Source: a bacterium (GTDB lineage: Bacteria; Auribacterota; UBA3054; JAPLST01). From it: a stretch of DNA of 38,039 bases. The DNA lies in NCBI GenBank assembly GCA_026417575.1, contig JAOACZ010000198.1, positions 1-38,039 of the forward strand, read 5' to 3'. The translations under genes were made by a program, and so were the position numbers. Below are positions 17,140 through 25,864 of this stretch, piece after piece (within the stretch, counting starts at the first letter, position 1; every line of letters starts with the position of its first letter). The notes below the pieces were generated by a model, which saw nothing but the letters and a program-made list of their open reading frames with translations, was not told the DNA's origin and did no database searches.

Positions 17140-18111
17140 TCAGAGGAATTTCCGGGCGGCCTGGCGAGAGAGTTTGGACATATCGTGGAGAGTGAAGAAG
17201 TCAATGCACTTGAAGTCTTTGTCGAGGGCTGGCTCGCCGCAAATGACAGCTCCGGCACGAAGGTAGGAGGAGAGGAGGGGTGGGACAAGTTTATGAGCGT
17301 ATTCTTCGACGGTGCGTACATCGAGATTTTCAATCAATTTGATGTAGAGAGGGAGGGCCCGCATACGGTAAGGCTCGAGGGGTGTGACGCGGCAGGAGGG
17401 GTCGGAGGGGTAGTGGGACATAAGGTAGTGATAAATGACAGCAGCTTCCAAAGGGTCAGTGGTTTTGACGCTGGAGCAGCCGAACATGAAGCTGGTATTG
17501 GTTGCTTTAACGTATTCGCTCAGGCCACGCCAAAGGAGGGTGAGGATGACGCCCTTGCGATAATCCTTGTGGACACACGCGCGACCGAGCTCGAGCTTGA
17601 CGCCGGGGAGGGCTGTAATAGCATCGATGGCGAACTCAGTTGCGGAGTAGAAGTGGTCATTGAAAGTGGAGCAATTAAGGCGGTAGGTACCGACGCAGGT
17701 GTTAGATTTTTTCTCGAGAATCATGAGATGATCACAGATGGCGTCGAACTCATCCATGTCGATGGCAAAGAAGCGGCGTTTCTCAAGGAATTCTTTGTAG
17801 AAAACACGGTAGCGAAGGCGTAAGATTTTGTCGAGTTCTGCAGGAGTCTCGACGGTTTTGAGAACGAAGTTTTTGAGTTCGATATAGACGGGGACTTTAC
17901 AGCGGAAGGCGCGGAGACGGAAGCGGTAGGGGAGGACGAGTCCAGTGCTGGCGCGCACGACGGAGCGAAGGACGCTCTGTTTTTGAGGGGGGTGGGTGAC
18001 AGGGCGGCGGAAGAATTGGAGGGGGACGCGGAGGAGGCGTCGGCGAATGCGCGCGACGCGGGCGCGCGTTGAAAGGTGAGGAGGCGCAGATGGCGGCGAG
18101 TCCGGGGGCAT
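17140..18111 (-). CDS. GNAT-family acyltransferase (OlsB / COG3176-like)
   Basis: A 323-residue protein with a basic, Pro/Arg-rich N-terminus (about 1-75) and an Acetyltransf_5-type GNAT domain (about 80-265). Family-typical stretches are LRLRYRVFYKEF, VGTYRLNC, LELGRACVHKDYRKG, LLWRGLSEYV and FMFGCSSVKTTDP. Relatives include OlsB, which transfers 3-hydroxyacyl groups from ACP to ornithine, and exosortase-associated acyltransferases; the substrate here cannot be decided. GGAGG lies about 11 bases upstream of ATG 18111. It begins 23 bases after the hydrogenase large-subunit gene and is the last gene of that operon, which is an unexpected partnership. Lipid or surface modification is the likeliest role. 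Confidence 0.75.
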   Translation of the reverse strand: MPPDSPPSAPPHLSTRARVARIRRRLLRVPLQFFRRPVTHPPQKQSVLRSVVRASTGLVLPYRFRLRAFRCKVPVYIELKNFVLKTVETPAELDKILRLRYRVFYKEFLEKRRFFAIDMDEFDAICDHLMILEKKSNTCVGTYRLNCSTFNDHFYSATEFAIDAITALPGVKLELGRACVHKDYRKGVILTLLWRGLSEYVKATNTSFMFGCSSVKTTDPLEAAVIYHYLMSHYPSDPSCRVTPLEPYRMRALPLYIKLIENLDVRTVEEYAHKLVPPLLSSYLRAGAVICGEPALDKDFKCIDFFTLHDMSKLSRQAARKFL

Positions 18112-18134: not shown

Positions 18135-19562
18135 CTAGCGCCGGGAGAGACGCTTGATTAGCTGGCCAGCCGGGGTGACCAGGTCGACGACAAGTGGCAT
18201 TTGGCCGTAGGCGTGGGTGGCACAGCTAAGGCACGGGTCATAGCAGCGAATGCCGGCCTCGATGCGATTGAGGATGCCTTCGGTGATTTCATGGCCGGGC
18301 TTGATGAACTCACGCGCGATGGTTTCGACGGCTTTATTCATCCCGATGTTATTTTGGGTCGTAGCGACGATAAGGTTAACTTTGGTAAGTAAGCCGTCGG
18401 GGTTAATTTTGTAGTGGTGGATGAGAGTACCGCGGGGGGCTTCAATGATACCGATGCCTTCAGTGCGCAGCTCACCGCGGTGAACGAGGTCGTCGTTTTC
18501 GAGGTCGTCGTCCTCAAGGAGGTTTTGGATGACCTCAGCAGCGTGGAGCATTTCTACTAGGCGTGCAATGTGGTAGAAAAGGGAGCCTTTGACGGGTCGG
18601 CCGCTGGCGAGACGTTTAAAGAAGTCGAAATATTTTTGCGCTCGCGGGGTGCCAATACTGTCAGCGACGTTGAAGCGTGCGAGCGGGCCGACACGGTAGC
18701 ATCCGTCAGGGTAGCCGAGTTTGCGGAAGAAGGGGAATTTCATATAGGACCAGTCCTCGACGGCTTCGGCGATTTCAGAGAGATAGTTTTCGTAGGGGAG
18801 CTGGTCGAAGACGATGCGACCCTGAGCATCGATACCGCGAAGTTTACCGTGGTACAGTTGCAATTCACCTTTTTCGTCGACGGTACCCATATAGGGGGTG
18901 TCAAACGAGGCAAAGGAAGCGAAGAGCTCCTTGTTTTTGTTGTAGAAGTCGAGACAGAGATTGACACTTTCTTCGGCCCATTCGACGATGGTGGGGATTT
19001 CGGCGCGAAGGCGTGAACGGTCTGTAGATTTAATTGGGGCGTTCATGCCCCCGGGGATGGCACCAGTAGGATGGATTTTCTTACCACCGGTGGCTTTGAT
19101 GACCTCCTGACCGTACTTGCGCATTTTAATGGCCTTGAGGGTGGTCTGCGGGTCGACGGAGACTAAGCCAACGAGATTGCGAATTGTGGGGTCGGCGTCG
19201 AAGCCGAGGAGGAAGTCAGCGGCGCAAAGGTGGAAGAAGTGGAGGGCATGAGATTGGAGGACTTGGCCGTAGTGCATGAGGCGGCGGAGGAGATCAGCGG
19301 GGCGGGGGACATTGGCACTGACGAGCATGTCACATGTTTTCGCGGCGGCGAGGTGGTGGCTAACGGGACATATGCCGCACATTCGTTCGGACATGACGGG
19401 CATTTCCCAAAAAGGACGGCCCTGGACGAACTTTTCGAAACCGCGGAATTCAATAATATGGAGGCGAGCCTGTTCAACTTTACCAGCGTCGTTGATGACT
19501 AGCGTGACTTTGCCATGACCTTCGACACGGGTGACAGGATTGATTTCAATTTTGCGAGGCAT
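18135..19562 (-). CDS. hoxH: [NiFe] hydrogenase large subunit, group 3 (HoxH-like)
   Basis: Catalytic subunit that binds the NiFe(CN)2CO centre and interconverts H2 with protons and electrons in the cytoplasm. The 475 residues contain the N-terminal pair RMCGICPVSH (C62, C65), INPVTRVEGHGKVTL with the conserved Glu, and the C-terminal pair DPCLSCATH (C444, C447, H450). A 25-residue extension after His450 (AYGQMPLVVDLV...) is the peptide normally removed by an endopeptidase after nickel insertion, so a HoxW/HyaD-type protease must be encoded elsewhere. EFRGFEKFVQGRPFWEMP fits bidirectional HoxH (group 3c/3d) rather than membrane uptake enzymes. It has its own predicted promoter at 19619-19647, besides read-through from hoxY 86 bases upstream. 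Confidence 0.93.
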   Translation of the reverse strand: MPRKIEINPVTRVEGHGKVTLVINDAGKVEQARLHIIEFRGFEKFVQGRPFWEMPVMSERMCGICPVSHHLAAAKTCDMLVSANVPRPADLLRRLMHYGQVLQSHALHFFHLCAADFLLGFDADPTIRNLVGLVSVDPQTTLKAIKMRKYGQEVIKATGGKKIHPTGAIPGGMNAPIKSTDRSRLRAEIPTIVEWAEESVNLCLDFYNKNKELFASFASFDTPYMGTVDEKGELQLYHGKLRGIDAQGRIVFDQLPYENYLSEIAEAVEDWSYMKFPFFRKLGYPDGCYRVGPLARFNVADSIGTPRAQKYFDFFKRLASGRPVKGSLFYHIARLVEMLHAAEVIQNLLEDDDLENDDLVHRGELRTEGIGIIEAPRGTLIHHYKINPDGLLTKVNLIVATTQNNIGMNKAVETIAREFIKPGHEITEGILNRIEAGIRCYDPCLSCATHAYGQMPLVVDLVTPAGQLIKRLSRR

Positions 19563-19648: not shown

Positions 19649-20209
19649 TTAATCAAACTTAAACAAGGTGTAGGGGATCTGCTCGGGCGGGGGAACACGT
19701 CCGGCGAGCAATTCCGTCAGGACAAACCAGATAACATCGGCGTCGGGTGGACAGCCCGGGATGCAGTAGTCGGTTTTGACTACGTGGGGCACGGGAAGGA
19801 CTTTCGGGAGGAGTTTTGGCAGATCGGGGCCGTTGGGAATCTTACCATTGACGGTGGAGTCGGTATTAAGAAACGCTTCTTCAAGACATTCTTGGAGCGA
19901 GAACATATTGCGCATAGCGGGGAGGTTGCCAAACACGGCGCAGTCGCCAAGGGCGATAAGGAATTCCGCTTTTTCGCGATACAGGTGGAGTGTTTCCACG
20001 TTTTCCTCGTTACAGACGGCGCCCTCGATGAGGGCGATTTTGACCTCGGGTGGCTTTTTGATATCCGTGATGGGGCTTGCCGTGATATCGACGAGCTTGA
20101 CCAGGTCAAGGATTCGCTCATCAATATCGAGGAGGGACATATGGCAACCAGCGCAGCCGCCGAGCCAGCAGGTGGCGATTTTAGGTTTTGAAGAAGGCGT
20201 GACAGACAT
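19649..20209 (-). CDS. hoxY: [NiFe] hydrogenase small subunit (HoxY-like)
   Basis: Electron-transfer subunit that carries the [4Fe-4S] cluster next to the NiFe site. At 186 residues it has the short soluble HoxY/MvhG form without Tat signal. Cluster cysteines are visible in CWLGGCAGCHMSLLDIDE (C14, C19, C22), GAVCNEEN, LGDCAVFGN and DYCIPGCPPDAD, the expected ligand set for one proximal cluster plus extra cysteines. It follows hoxU by 45 bases and precedes hoxH, the standard order of soluble bidirectional hydrogenases. Confidence 0.92.
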   Translation of the reverse strand: MSVTPSSKPKIATCWLGGCAGCHMSLLDIDERILDLVKLVDITASPITDIKKPPEVKIALIEGAVCNEENVETLHLYREKAEFLIALGDCAVFGNLPAMRNMFSLQECLEEAFLNTDSTVNGKIPNGPDLPKLLPKVLPVPHVVKTDYCIPGCPPDADVIWFVLTELLAGRVPPPEQIPYTLFKFD

Positions 20210-20254: not shown

Positions 20255-21181
20255 TCATGAATTTTGCCTCGACTGCATGCGTCGTGATTTTTTTTGCACT
20301 GTGCGACGAGGTGGGGAGGGGCGTGCAGAGTGTGAAGGGGGTGAAGCAGCGGCCGTTTGCGCAGCGGGAGTTTGCGTTGGTGATGGCGACGGTGTGGGTG
20401 AGGGTGAGGGTGTGGGTGCAGGCGTAGGAGGCTGGGTAGTCGGAGCAGCGGAGGGTGGAGTCGTTGGTGGCCGCTTAGGCGTTGGTAAATACGAGATCGG
20501 GGTGGTATCGTACAGGCGCTCACCGTAGCGGACACTATAGGCGAGTTCGCGTTTGCACAGGGAGCCGGTGGGACACACTTGAATAGCCGCGTCGATCACG
20601 GTGGTGTCTGTGTCGCCAAGTCTTCCGTCGATATTGACGGTGATATCTGATTCGATGCCGCGGCCTTTGATAGCGAAGATGCCTTTTTTGTCGACTTCTG
20701 CGCTCGCGCGGACGCAGCGGCCGCAGAGGATGCAGCGGTTGGGGTCATGAATGACGTCTGAGTGGGATGCGTCCACGTCCTTTTTGGGCCAGAGGAAGGG
20801 GAAGCGGACGTAGCTCATGCCGAGGCGGTAAGCGAGGGCTTGGAGCTCGCAGTTGCCGCTTTTTTCACAGTAGGGGCACTGATGATTGCGTTCTGAGAAG
20901 ATGAGTTCAAGGTTCATTCGACGGAGGGCAACAATTTCAGGCGTTTTGGTATGGACGACCATGTCGTCGGTGGCAGGGGTGGTGCACGCAGAATTGAAGT
21001 TCTGTCGGCCGGTGCCCTCGATTTCCACGACGCACATGCGGCAGGCACCGGAATTGGAGAGCAAGGGATGATGACAGAGGGTGGGGATGTAGATATTTGC
21101 ACGTTTGGCGGCATCGAGGATTGTGTCACCCTCGTAAGCCGAGACACGGACACCGTCGATCGTGAGGAGGATTGTTTTCAT
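20255..21181 (-). CDS. hoxU: HoxU-like iron-sulfur subunit with Pro/Thr/Ser-rich tail
   Basis: Relay subunit linking the diaphorase to the hydrogenase. Residues 1-230 are a full HoxU: [2Fe-2S] ligands C36, C47, C50, C66 (LCHHPLLSNSGACRMC...SAC), the His/Cys cluster HQCPYCEKSGNC (H100, C102, C105, C111), and a [4Fe-4S] set CILCGRC (C150, C153, C156) with C203 in QVCPTGSL. The family normally ends soon after RYGERLYD. Here about 78 residues follow, almost entirely Pro, Thr, Ser and Ala (PTPAPTPSPSPTPSPSPT), ending in a basic segment rich in Arg/Lys. The tail is encoded by low-complexity DNA at 20255-20490, without frameshift up to the stop. It is 35 bases downstream of the hoxF fusion. Confidence 0.9.
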   Translation of the reverse strand: MKTILLTIDGVRVSAYEGDTILDAAKRANIYIPTLCHHPLLSNSGACRMCVVEIEGTGRQNFNSACTTPATDDMVVHTKTPEIVALRRMNLELIFSERNHQCPYCEKSGNCELQALAYRLGMSYVRFPFLWPKKDVDASHSDVIHDPNRCILCGRCVRASAEVDKKGIFAIKGRGIESDITVNIDGRLGDTDTTVIDAAIQVCPTGSLCKRELAYSVRYGERLYDTTPISYLPTPKRPPTTPPSAAPTTQPPTPAPTPSPSPTPSPSPTQTPAAQTAAASPPSHSARPSPPRRTVQKKSRRMQSRQNS

Positions 21182-21216: not shown

Positions 21217-24200
21217 TTAGCGGATAGGGGCGATAGAAGCACGGTCGCAGTGGAGGCAATGGCGGGCCTCTTCCATAACCTGATCGCGGCTTAGGCCGCG
21301 TTCCACTTCGTTAAAGTTACCGGCACGTTCTTCGACTGGGAGGACATACTGTTCGAACTGCTTGCGCGTCTCGACGTAGTCGTGTTCGTCGTAGGTAGTG
21401 ACGGGAATAAGGGTGGTGCGTGGCTTCCAGAGGATGCCATCGCCACCGAGGAAGCGATCGACGGCGGCGGCAACGCGCTGACCGTCGCCGATCGCGTCAG
21501 CGACCATGGCGGGACCCGTGGTATCATCGCCGGCCGCGAAGACACCGGGGACGTTGGTCATACGGGTACGCTCGTCGACGAGGAAGGTGCGATATTTGGG
21601 GTCAACGAGGATATTCTTTTCCACTTCAGCGAAGTGCGATTCGGGCTCTTGACCAAGGGCGGGAATGACCATGTCAACGGGGATTTCAAATTCTGACCCC
21701 TCGATGATGGAGGTTTTCCGGCGGCCTGTATCGTCGTAGGCACCGAGGCGCATACGGGCGCATTTGAGGGCGACGACATGGCCGTCCACACCGATGGCTT
21801 CGAGGGGAGTAACTAGGAAGGTGAACTTGACACCTTCGTTGATAGCTTCTTCGATTTCTTCCTTCAAGGCGGGCATATCCTCTTTGAGGCGGCGGTAGAG
21901 GACCTCGACGGACTTTGCGCCGAGGCGGAGAGCTGTGCGGGCGGCATCCATGGCGGTATTGCCGCCGCCGACGACGACGACGCGCTTTCCTCTGACCATC
22001 ATGGGATAGCCGATATTAAAGTCGCGGAGGAAGTCCATGCCACCGACGACACCGGCGAGATGTTCGCCTTTGACACCGAGTTTATAGCTGACGTGGGCGC
22101 CGATGGCGAGGCAGATGGCTTTGTAGCCGAGGGCGAAGATTTGATCAATCGTGATGTTTTTGCCGACTTTGACGCCATAGACGATGCGGACGCCCATATC
22201 CGTGATCATTTTGACTTCTTGGTCGATGACCTCGCGAGGGAGGCGGTAGGCTGGTATGCCGAAGCGGAGGGTACCGCCAGGGTAGGGGAGAGCCTCGAAC
22301 ATGACGACCTCGTAGCCTTTTTTCGCGAGGAAGTAGGCGATGGTGAGGCCGGCGGGGCCGGTGCCGACGATAGCGACTTTATCTTTGGTTGGTTTGATGC
22401 GTTCAATGGGGAGCTCTTTTTCGTAGAGGGAGATGTAGCGTTTAATTGCGCGGATGTCGATGGCACGATCAGTTTGGCCACGGCGACACTTGGTCATGCA
22501 GGGGTGGTGGCAGACGCGGCCACAGATGGCGGGGAGCGGGTTCCGCTCACGGTGGAGGAGGAGGGCGTCGATGAAACGGCCTTCGGCGGCGAGCTGGACG
22601 TAGCCAGCTGCGTCGACATTGCAGGGGCAGGCGTTTTCGCAGGGGGCGGTGAACAGTGCGGTACAAACGCCAGCTTTGCAGCGTTTGTCGATAATGTGCT
22701 CCTCGTATTCTTTACGGAAGTAGCGTAGGGTGGAGAGGACGGGGTTAGGAGCAGACTGGCCGAGGCCGCAAAGGCTCATGCGTTGCATCATTTTGCCGAG
22801 CTCGAGCATGCGGTCAATGTCTTCGGGCTGACCTTGGCCTTTGGTGATGCGATCGAGGATATCATAGAGTTGTTTAGTACCGACGCGGCAGGGGGGGCAT
22901 TTGCCGCAGGACTCGCTGACGCAGAATTCCATAAAGAACTTGGCGACATCCACCATGCAGGTATCTTCGTCCATGACGATGAGGCCGCCGGAGCCCATCA
23001 TGGAGCCGATTTCCTTGAGGGTTTCGTACTCCATGGAGATATCGAGGAACTGTTTTGGGATACAGCCACCGGAGGGGCCGCCTGTTTGGGCGGCTTTGAA
23101 TTGTTTTCCATCGGGGATTCCGCCACCGATATCGAAGATAATTTGGCGCAGGGTGGTGCCCATGGGAACTTCGACGATGCCGGTGTTGCGGACACGACCG
23201 GCGAGGGCGAAGACTTTGGTACCTTTGCTGCGCTCAGTACCGATGGAAGCGAACCAGGCGCCGCCGTTACGGATGATGGGGGGTATACACGCGAAGGTTT
23301 CGACGTTATTAATGAGGGTGGGCATACCCCAGAGGCCTTTGATAGCAGGGAAGGGGGGCTTCGGAGAGGGCTGGCCGCGCTTACCTTCGATGGAGTGGAG
23401 GAGGGCCGTTTCTTCGCCGCAGACAAAGGCGCCAGCGCCGATACGGAGTTCGATGTCGAAGTTGAAGGGGGTTTCGAAGATATTTTTTCCGAGGAGGCCG
23501 TATTGGCGGGCGGCGGCGATACCCTTTTCGATCATTTCGATGGCGAGGGGATATTCGGCGCGGCAGTAGATGATGCCGTGTTCGGCGCCGACGGCGTAGC
23601 CCGCGATAGCCATGGCTTCGAGGACGCGATGGGGGTCACCTTCGAGGACGTTGCGGTCCATGAAGGCACCTGGGTCGCCTTCGTCGGCGTTACAGACGAC
23701 ATATTTGCGTTCACCTTCTGCGCGGGCGACGAAATCCCACTTGACGCCGGTAGGGAAGCCGCCACCGCCACGGCCGCGCAGGCCACTGATTTTGACTTCG
23801 TGAATGACCTCCTGGGGGGTCATTTCAGTGAGGACCTTGGCGAGGGCGGAGTAGCCGTCGCGGCCGATGTAGTCTTCGATGCTGGCGGGGTTAATGATGC
23901 CGGCATTTTCCATGACAATGCGCAATTCCTGGCCCTTGAAGAAGTTGGTTTTGCGCATGTTGGCGATGACGTCTTTCGCGTCGAGCGACTCGTCCATGAG
24001 GCGGCGGACGGGGCGGCCTTTGAGGAAATGTTCTTCGATAATTTCATGGACATCGCGTGGGTGGACTTTGACGTACATGACGTCGTCGGGATAGACGATC
24101 ATCACGGGTGCCTGCTTACAATAGCCGACGCAGTCGGAGGTGAGGATACGGACTTCGTCGTCGAGGCCGAATTCCCCGAGGCGGGCGCGAAGTGCGGATT

Positions 24201-24273
24201 CGACGGCAGAAGCGCCTTTTTTCTCACACACGGCGCCGGTACAGATCAGAACACGCAAACGTGCAGTGGGCAT
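21217..24273 (-). CDS. hoxF: HoxF/HydB-like flavoprotein fused to GltD/NfnB-like FAD oxidoreductase
   Basis: A 1018-residue fusion. (1) Residues 1-85: thioredoxin-fold [2Fe-2S] domain, C11, C16, C48, C52. (2) About 100-540: NuoF-type NADH/FMN module with GLRGRGGGGFPTGVKW, NADEGDPGAFMDR, GAGAFVCGEETAL, and a [4Fe-4S] set SCGKCPPC (C456, C459, C462) plus C502; then RCKAGVC (C532, C537), which I recall as typical of bifurcating HydB subunits. (3) About 541-1010: a complete GltD/NfnB-like unit with two cluster motifs (C545/C549/C551 and CGRVCHHPCMTKC at 584-596), FAD site VAIVGTGPAGLTIAYFLAKK, nucleotide site VVVVGGGNTAMDAARTALRL, and NVPGVFAAGDDTTGPAMVADA. Part 3 stands where HydB carries a two-cluster ferredoxin domain. 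The enzyme thus has two flavins and two pyridine-nucleotide sites. All expected motifs are intact. Confidence 0.93.
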   Translation of the reverse strand: MPTARLRVLICTGAVCEKKGASAVESALRARLGEFGLDDEVRILTSDCVGYCKQAPVMIVYPDDVMYVKVHPRDVHEIIEEHFLKGRPVRRLMDESLDAKDVIANMRKTNFFKGQELRIVMENAGIINPASIEDYIGRDGYSALAKVLTEMTPQEVIHEVKISGLRGRGGGGFPTGVKWDFVARAEGERKYVVCNADEGDPGAFMDRNVLEGDPHRVLEAMAIAGYAVGAEHGIIYCRAEYPLAIEMIEKGIAAARQYGLLGKNIFETPFNFDIELRIGAGAFVCGEETALLHSIEGKRGQPSPKPPFPAIKGLWGMPTLINNVETFACIPPIIRNGGAWFASIGTERSKGTKVFALAGRVRNTGIVEVPMGTTLRQIIFDIGGGIPDGKQFKAAQTGGPSGGCIPKQFLDISMEYETLKEIGSMMGSGGLIVMDEDTCMVDVAKFFMEFCVSESCGKCPPCRVGTKQLYDILDRITKGQGQPEDIDRMLELGKMMQRMSLCGLGQSAPNPVLSTLRYFRKEYEEHIIDKRCKAGVCTALFTAPCENACPCNVDAAGYVQLAAEGRFIDALLLHRERNPLPAICGRVCHHPCMTKCRRGQTDRAIDIRAIKRYISLYEKELPIERIKPTKDKVAIVGTGPAGLTIAYFLAKKGYEVVMFEALPYPGGTLRFGIPAYRLPREVIDQEVKMITDMGVRIVYGVKVGKNITIDQIFALGYKAICLAIGAHVSYKLGVKGEHLAGVVGGMDFLRDFNIGYPMMVRGKRVVVVGGGNTAMDAARTALRLGAKSVEVLYRRLKEDMPALKEEIEEAINEGVKFTFLVTPLEAIGVDGHVVALKCARMRLGAYDDTGRRKTSIIEGSEFEIPVDMVIPALGQEPESHFAEVEKNILVDPKYRTFLVDERTRMTNVPGVFAAGDDTTGPAMVADAIGDGQRVAAAVDRFLGGDGILWKPRTTLIPVTTYDEHDYVETRKQFEQYVLPVEERAGNFNEVERGLSRDQVMEEARHCLHCDRASIAPIR

Positions 24274-24323: not shown

Positions 24324-24716
24324 TCAAGCGGTAGTGGGTGTATTGCCGACATCACCTGGGACAACGACGCGATGGGAAGCGAGAATCTGTCCTCGGACGA
24401 TGTGAGTTTCAAGTAGTTCACGAATCATATCTGGTTTTAAGTTACCGTAGACGACCTTTTCATTGCCGTGATAGATAGCGCACATCGGCTCGATATCATC
24501 GAGGCCGAAGCTGCCGGATTGGGTGACGATGACATTGAGGCCGAGGTTCTGGACTTCCTCCATAATTTTTTTGAGGATCTCGCGGGCACCGTAAAGGATG
24601 CCACTGGTACCCATGCTGACGACGATTTTCCATTCAGGTTCTTGGGCTTGGCGAGCACGCTGCTCGAGTGCGGCAGCAGCACGTTCACGGATTTTGCGTA
24701 ATTCATCAAGGGTCAT
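24324..24716 (-). CDS. Thioredoxin-fold ferredoxin homologue lacking cluster cysteines
   Basis: A 130-residue protein aligning with the small (2Fe-2S) ferredoxin-like proteins encoded in HydABC-type hydrogenase operons: an N-terminal helix (MTLDELRKIRERAAAALEQR), VVSMGTSGILYGAREILKKI, VIVTQSGSFGLDDIEPMCAI, and VVYGNLKPDMIRELLETHIV. In homologues I remember, the equivalent positions read GTCGIAAGAR and QTGCIGxC, with Cys as cluster ligands. Here they are Ser, Ser and Asp, and the codons (AGT, AGC, GAT) are clear. The only cysteine, in EPMCAI, is not at a ligand position. The fold is probably kept for structural or regulatory use without a cluster. It lies 42 bases after the GHKL gene and 50 before hoxF. 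Confidence 0.8.
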   Translation of the reverse strand: MTLDELRKIRERAAAALEQRARQAQEPEWKIVVSMGTSGILYGAREILKKIMEEVQNLGLNVIVTQSGSFGLDDIEPMCAIYHGNEKVVYGNLKPDMIRELLETHIVRGQILASHRVVVPGDVGNTPTTA

Positions 24717-24758: not shown

Positions 24759-25298
24759 TTAGGATGCAGAAAGTTGTTCACGGAACCAGGTAGTCATATC
24801 GGCAGACTGCCAGAGGGCATCGGCATGGGGTCCAAGGGCGCGGCGGACAGGGAGGGTATCGAAGGTGACGCAGCGTTGGTTGCGACGGTGAGCGCAATAG
24901 AAGCGGACGTGAGGGTTTGCTTGAATGAGGGCACGAAGGGTTTCATTCCAGTCACCGAGGGGGGGCTGGTCAACGTTGTCGAGGGGGTACCAGCCGGTGA
25001 TGACTGTGCCACAACCGGGGCGGGATTTAATTTTGAAGCCACCGCCGCAACTTTCGACCAGCTGACGGAAGAAGGGGAGGCCGAGGCCAATGGACTTGCG
25101 GCGAGAAGTTTTGGTCGTCATGAATGGGTCCAAGGCGCGTGTGAGTGTGTGAGGGGCCATACCGCAACCGTTGTCGGCGATGGTGAGGGTGAGGCGATTG
25201 CGGGTGAAATCTTCGTCGAGCCAAATTTTGATGTAGGTGGCGCCGGCGGTGAGGGCGTTTTGAACGAGGTCGAGCATGAAAAGCGCGAGCTCATACAT
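24759..25298 (-). CDS. Stand-alone GHKL-type ATPase
   Basis: A 179-residue histidine-kinase-like ATPase domain with no sensor, HAMP or phosphoacceptor domain. N-box is ALFMLDLVQNALTAGA (near residue 14), G1 is IADNGCGM, F-box region is LDPFMTTKTSRRKSIGLGLPF which also contains the G2 loop, and a final GCGTVITG completes the fold. The C-terminal 60 residues (from about DNVDQPPLGDW) match no domain I know. Small ATPases of this kind accompany bifurcating hydrogenase genes; a role in regulation by protein phosphorylation or ATP-dependent binding is inferred. It starts 8 bases after the NuoE-like gene, so the two are very likely cotranslated. Confidence 0.82.
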   Translation of the reverse strand: MYELALFMLDLVQNALTAGATYIKIWLDEDFTRNRLTLTIADNGCGMAPHTLTRALDPFMTTKTSRRKSIGLGLPFFRQLVESCGGGFKIKSRPGCGTVITGWYPLDNVDQPPLGDWNETLRALIQANPHVRFYCAHRRNQRCVTFDTLPVRRALGPHADALWQSADMTTWFREQLSAS

Positions 25299-25306
25299 GG
25301 GGTAGG

Positions 25307-25816
25307 CTAGGCAGATGTGCGCTGATGCTCGGCCGCAAGTGCGCGGTAGTGATTAATGACGGCGCGCACTTTCGCCGGTGAAATGAGACGGTCATAGACC
25401 TTGTCATTGACCATCATCGCGGGTGCGAGGCCGCAGGCGCCGATACACCGAACCGCCTCGACACTGAACATGCGGTCTTCAGACACTTCGTCGAGGCCGA
25501 TACCGAGTTCGGCTTTCAATTGGTCGACGATCATCGGGCCACCGCGGATGTAGCAGGCCGTGCCGAGGCAGACCTTAAACTGGAAGAGGCCTTTTGGTTT
25601 TAGGTGAAAGAGATGATAAAAGGTAGCGACCCCATAAACTTCACTGACAGGGTGGCCGAGTTTGTTAGCGACATATTCGAGGACTTCGCGTGGGAGGTAC
25701 CCAAAGATTTTCTGGGCGCCGTGGAGGGTTTGGATGATAGGGCCTGGGAGATGTTTGTTTTGCTCGATGACTTCATCGAGTTGGCGATAGAGCTCGGCGC
25801 AATCTTTGCATTTCAT
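25307..25816 (-). CDS. hoxE: NuoE/HoxE-like [2Fe-2S] subunit
   Basis: First gene of the hydrogenase operon. The NuoE fold is clear: LPGPIIQTLHGAQKIFGYLP, VSEVYGVATFYHLFHLKPKG, then the [2Fe-2S] ligands in VCLGTACYIRGG (Cys five residues apart) and CIGACGLAP. It transfers electrons to or from the FMN subunit encoded two genes downstream. The frame is open to an ATG at 25846, but ATG 25816 is used because the family normally starts close to the KCKDCAELYRQL helix and the promoter at 25865-25893 would leave only about 12 bases of leader for the longer version. Neither start has a Shine-Dalgarno. The product is 169 residues with this start. Confidence 0.9.
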   Translation of the reverse strand: MKCKDCAELYRQLDEVIEQNKHLPGPIIQTLHGAQKIFGYLPREVLEYVANKLGHPVSEVYGVATFYHLFHLKPKGLFQFKVCLGTACYIRGGPMIVDQLKAELGIGLDEVSEDRMFSVEAVRCIGACGLAPAMMVNDKVYDRLISPAKVRAVINHYRALAAEHQRTSA

Positions 25817-25864
25817 ACGATGCCGGAGGTGAGGCATTATGCACATGTAACAAATACAGGGGTT

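Follow-up and report, generated by a model that had tools for sequence, protein, structure and literature searches.

A HydD/HndB-type protein without cluster cysteines encoded in an electron-bifurcating-type [NiFe]-hydrogenase operon

Small proteins with a ferredoxin-like thioredoxin fold are encoded together with several electron-bifurcating hydrogenases. HydD from Acetobacterium woodii and HndB from Solidesulfovibrio fructosivorans were each counted as a subunit of their enzyme, HndB being part of a tetrameric complex. For A. woodii HydD, the protein was predicted to contain no cofactor (PMC6288185), and the same has been stated in PMC10084766. In contrast, the conserved cysteines of HydD were described elsewhere as putatively coordinating Fe-S clusters (PMC6085437). 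The Acetomicrobium mobile operon for NiFe-HydABCSL, an enzyme of the NiFe-Bfu type, contains genes for HydABC homologues, HydS, HydL, HisK and HydD. HydD and HisK are absent from the purified enzyme, and a role in maturation and/or regulation was assumed for them (PMC8880783, PMC9304861). A. mobile HydB, with four cysteines in its N-terminal domain, has an additional [2Fe-2S] cluster, B5. For the related StnB, cryo-electron microscopy identified only clusters B1 to B4 and none in the N-terminal domain (PMC10482914).

The window, the whole stretch of 38,039 nucleotides analysed here, contains an operon with the order hydC-GHKL-hydD-hydB::gltD-hydA-hydS-hydL, coding for a hydrogenase of the electron-bifurcating type (Table 1). 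It resembles the A. mobile operon in its HydABC homologues, HydS and HydL and in the presence of HisK-like and HydD proteins, HydD being likened on the strength of its operon. It differs in that HydB carries a GltD-like module, and in that a PHP-type gene beside the operon, as present in A. mobile, was not found in the window. HydB consists of an N-terminal domain with four cysteines, the FMN/NADH core and the ligands for B1 and B2. The B1/B2 ligands characteristic of NiFe-HydABCSL, including the histidine of B2 (for the rule on this ligand, see PMC9304861), are present, with EYEEHIIDKRCKAGVC aligning with the corresponding site of A. mobile and A. woodii HydB. The C-terminal ferredoxin domain for the two [4Fe-4S] clusters B3 and B4 is replaced by Fer4_20 and Pyr_redox_2 domains, which form the GltD-like module.

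Table 1. Genes of the hydrogenase operon in the window
Product	Position	Strand	Remarks
HydL, NiFe-hydrogenase large subunit	18135..19562	-	VhuA-like; RMCGICPVSH and DPCLSCATH motifs
HydS, NiFe-hydrogenase small subunit	19649..20209	-	
HydA/HoxU-like NuoG-N-terminal subunit	20255..21181	-	without H-cluster; Pro/Thr-rich C-terminal tail
HydB/NuoF-like subunit fused to GltD/NfnB-like NAD(P)H-FAD module	21217..24273	-	1018 aa
HydD/HndB-type protein	24324..24716	-	130 aa; thioredoxin-like [2Fe-2S]-ferredoxin fold without cluster cysteines (S34, S38, S69, D73)
GHKL/HATPase_c protein	24759..25298	-	179 aa; HisK-like; PF02518 E 5.6e-17
HydC/NuoE/HoxE-like thioredoxin-like [2Fe-2S] subunit	25307..25846	-	four Cys kept

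Some further features of the locus were observed. The GltD/NfnB-like FAD/NAD(P)H module of HydB occupies the place where a two-[4Fe-4S] tail is usual, while the B1 and B2 ligands of the Bfu type are retained; 16 further loci with HydB-GltD fusions were identified among the HydD loci surveyed, and the literature searched yielded no account of such a fusion. The tail of the HoxU-like HydA is rich in Pro, Thr, Ser and Ala over about 80-90 residues, which is unusual for a cytoplasmic electron-transfer subunit. Directly downstream of hydL, a PF13444 acyltransferase is encoded (17140-18111, minus strand), with a weak match to FeeM-like N-acyl amino acid synthases. The genome to which the window belongs has a second locus near a contig end with matches to HydC and to the HydB N-terminus (L127; G000:C143:4000-10768).

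The hydD gene is an intact open reading frame with an ATG start. On the minus strand, the three positions occupied by cysteines in relatives are coded as Ser38 (AGT, 24603-24605), Ser69 (AGC, 24510-24512) and Asp73 (GAT, 24498-24500), and the fourth canonical cysteine position is Ser34 (AGC, 24615-24617). The sequence-only reading, that the fold motifs are kept while the cluster cysteines were replaced with unambiguous codons, was thereby borne out; it had named three replaced positions, which are Ser, Ser and Asp as described, though all four canonical positions are devoid of cysteine. Its wording that all cluster cysteines were lost is correct in that no ligand position holds a cysteine; the wider relatives already lack the canonical Cys 1 and have a shifted Cys 2, and one cysteine is kept. 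This is Cys79 (TGC, 24480-24482), the sole cysteine of the protein, at a non-ligand position and invariant in the clade. The serine codons at positions 34, 38 and 69 are AGY in all seven clade copies, one base away from TGY for cysteine, as would be expected if serines 38 and 69 descended from cysteines, without being proof of it. HydC and the HydB N-terminus, which are thioredoxin-like and encoded in the same operon, serve as an internal control, and each keeps four of four cysteines.

The AlphaFold2 model of the protein, based on a 64-sequence alignment, has a pLDDT of 87.5 and a pTM of 0.72. In Foldseek searches, it superimposed on 9bp5_B and 9n5u_B with an rmsd of 0.8 A, and on the N-terminal domains of StnB, NfnB and HydB with 0.8-1.4 A. 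Searches with sequences against the PDB likewise group it with these domains (E 5e-10 to the StnB/HoxF-type N-terminal domain; E 1e-27 for the HydD family profile against 9n5u_B). With the StnB/NfnB domain (8oh5, 9bov, 9n5u), it shares the fold, 30-31% identity and a common motif framework around CGIAAG and GCxGxC; it differs in being free-standing and in having Ser/Ser/Asp in place of the three cysteines. The fold is also that of the Aquifex aeolicus [2Fe-2S] ferredoxin (1f37, 1m2a; TM 0.74-0.81 on the target), which has four cysteines and a cluster where the window protein has none. PF01257, the family of thioredoxin-like [2Fe-2S] ferredoxins, did not match it even at E 0.1, and matched 32 of 64 HydD family members at 0.01. 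Since the four cysteine ligands that define the PF01257 ferredoxins are absent, the protein is, judged from its sequence, not a [2Fe-2S] ferredoxin by function.

By fold and context it is instead of the HydD/HndB type, an assignment based on its fold, its size and the position of its gene in the operon, with HydD and HndB of the named species compared by description. It is free-standing, falls in the size range of about 120-130 amino acids, has the ferredoxin-like thioredoxin fold, and its gene lies directly before hydB in a hydC-(GHKL)-hydD-hydB operon. A. woodii HydD and S. fructosivorans HndB, the fourth subunits of bifurcating [FeFe] hydrogenases, are thus similar in size, predicted lack of a cofactor and kind of operon, as judged from their descriptions and not from their cysteine state; their enzymes are of the [FeFe] type, and the one encoded here is of the [NiFe] type.

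Whole-genome searches identified hydD in seven genomes of the same order (families f1, f2 and f4), all seven with Ser/Ser/Asp, and six of the seven copies are intact, with 69-78% identity to the window copy. A single scan of named genomes gave six relatives, all from uncultured bacteria. In trees of HydD rows alone, the window HydD joins its clade firmly (100/99), and the HydD rows align over their full length, including the N-terminal helix. The alignment of homologues that had been proposed as a check revealed no copy with the cluster cysteines in the nearest clade; a HydD with three cysteines does occur in family f3 of the same order, and it is distant and different.

A first set, drawn from many families, consisted of 61 free-standing HydD proteins, 44 of them with all three cysteines and 17 with none at these positions. 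It was enlarged to 160 non-identical sequences, sampled unevenly in that one phylum was searched deeply. Of these, 74 keep the full triad and 84 have no cysteine there; two were scored as partial, one being a HydB N-terminus cut off where its contig ends and the other a divergent, misaligned row. At a 75% identity cut-off, 53 sequences with three cysteines and 31 without remain. In the latter class, Ser/Glu/Ser is the commonest set of residues, followed by Ser/Glu/Ala, Ser/Ser/Asp, Ser/Phe/Asp and others, and position 38 is a serine in 97% of the non-redundant rows. The loss of the cysteines, fixed in the whole local clade, is therefore widespread, occurring in several lineages, and not peculiar to this operon, and a single lineage-specific loss was rejected. 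In a tree computed with the trait columns, the 17 cysteine-less rows form one clade (98/91). Without these columns they do not, although a single clade is still compatible with the AU test (p 0.32). Five changes of cysteine state are required on a larger, quickly computed tree of 158 rows, three of them forced by well-supported branches. With the trees in conflict, a single loss was not adopted for the family as a whole.

HydD/HndB proteins are a widespread and largely known family, of which many members are cysteine-less. Since the family splits into classes with three cysteines and with none, both published descriptions of HydD, conflicting as they are, fit real sequences. The split amounts to a natural experiment on the role of HydD in electron-bifurcating enzymes. 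In 158 sequences, the cysteines number three or zero; being kept or lost together, they seem to act as a unit. The three-cysteine HydDs themselves have no canonical Cys 1, the residue at this place being H, G, A or S in all but four of their 74 rows, and their Cys 2 lies one residue away from its canonical place. The StnB N-terminal domain, for which no cluster is reported, has the same three-cysteine pattern. The ancestor of the HydD subfamily was perhaps already without a cluster. In the survey of 61 loci, no dependence of the cysteine state of HydD on that of the HydB N-terminus was seen, and HydB with four cysteines occurs with both classes.

The HydD of the window clade is under purifying selection. 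Of six usable pairs (dS below 1; among G002, G005, G007 and G009), five gave a dN/dS of 0.04-0.11, and the near-identical pair G005/G007, which has few changes, gave 0.19-0.21; most other pairs of the clade are saturated at synonymous sites and gave no usable value. M35, T37, G39, I40, G43, A44, G68, G71, E76 and P77 are about equally conserved in the cysteine-less and the three-cysteine classes, which suggests that the loops around the former cluster site are retained as a binding surface. Relaxed selection is disfavoured by the dN/dS and by this conservation. The purifying selection and non-redox role proposed earlier are supported by these values, the conserved loop residues and the retained place in the operon; fold and operon place being kept under purifying selection, a role that needs no cluster is indicated. 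In the G007 copy (L007 1501-1890), residue 45 is followed by an in-frame TAA, and two leucines are changed to histidine; G007 is a low-coverage MAG with this contig at 7x, so that sequencing error and decay are both possible.

On balance, the window protein is probably a cofactor-free structural or assembly protein of HydABC/Bfu-type oxidoreductases, here in an operon of the NiFe type, which docks on the HydB/HydC core. HydD would be related to the thioredoxin-like ferredoxin domain at the HydB N-terminus but hold no Fe-S cluster itself. It would dock by means of the conserved loops near the site of the former cluster, a surface kept once the cysteines had become dispensable, and would act structurally or in assembly, possibly together with the neighbouring ATPase. 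We infer docking, assembly role and ATPase link from the conservation and gene order described. A point against an assembly role is that the reports on HydD as a stable subunit differ between species, HndB and A. woodii HydD being counted as subunits and A. mobile HydD not. The lack of a predicted interface and the in-frame stop in one of the seven clade copies, that of G007, also count against this reading.

A wider possibility, which we consider rather doubtful, is that HydD exists in two functional states, the three cysteines forming a functional site for a metal, a cluster or a disulphide, and the cysteine-less form, as in the window, serving for docking only. If so, HydD would serve in Fe-S delivery or redox checking in some lineages, and in others it would be no more than an assembly clamp.

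The GHKL protein contains the N, G1 and G2 boxes and has no histidine-kinase dimerisation domain. The order hydC-GHKL-hydD-hydB recurs in many unrelated lineages, with a GHKL gene near 13 of 17 cysteine-less and 18 of 44 three-cysteine hydD genes (31 of 61 loci in all, some contigs being cut). A dedicated ATP-dependent pair of HydD and the GHKL ATPase, acting on the hydrogenase as chaperone or regulator, is unlikely as the main explanation. It would agree with this gene order, with the mostly intact ATP-binding boxes of the GHKL proteins and with the assumption of the A. mobile authors that HydD, HydP and HisK act in maturation or regulation. However, no GHKL gene lies nearby in 26 of the 44 and four of the 17 loci, again with some contigs cut. 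In addition, a tethered AlphaFold2 model, for which the GHKL stop codon was read as glycine, both genes being in one frame, contained well-folded domains (pTM 0.66) joined by a disordered linker with pLDDT below 50, without a confident interface, and was uninformative on contact. The partnership suggested by the sequence-only reading hence stands as to the frequent gene order and gained nothing from the model; a link resting on this frequent, not obligate, order is plausible. In the relative G001, a 127-aa open reading frame lies between the GHKL gene and hydD (L002 1909-2292, minus strand), by eye similar to the aspartic protease fold with an LVDTGA motif.

It is less probable still that the mature enzyme contains HydD permanently, as a structural subunit occupying a site on HydB/HydC, and that HydD has no role in maturation. 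The subunit status given to A. woodii HydD and HndB, and the closeness of the fold to the HydB N-terminal domain, would favour such a role, but A. mobile NiFe-HydABCSL, which is the closest characterised architecture, was active when purified and did not contain HydD.

Binding of a cluster or metal by the Ser/Ser/Ser/Asp site through oxygen ligands is very improbable. In its favour, the related Aquifex [2Fe-2S] ferredoxin has been crystallised with one cysteine changed to serine (1m2b, 1m2d), and Ser38, Ser69 and Asp73 do not vary within the window clade. Here, however, oxygen would have to supply every ligand, and two of the positions differ among the sister cysteine-less groups (Glu/Ser, Glu/Ala, Phe/Asp or Phe/Arg), so that no ligand set is conserved. 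That HydD is a decaying ferredoxin relic, for which the in-frame TAA of the G007 copy could be cited, is scarcely credible in view of the intact remaining copies with their identity to the window copy and of the low dN/dS.
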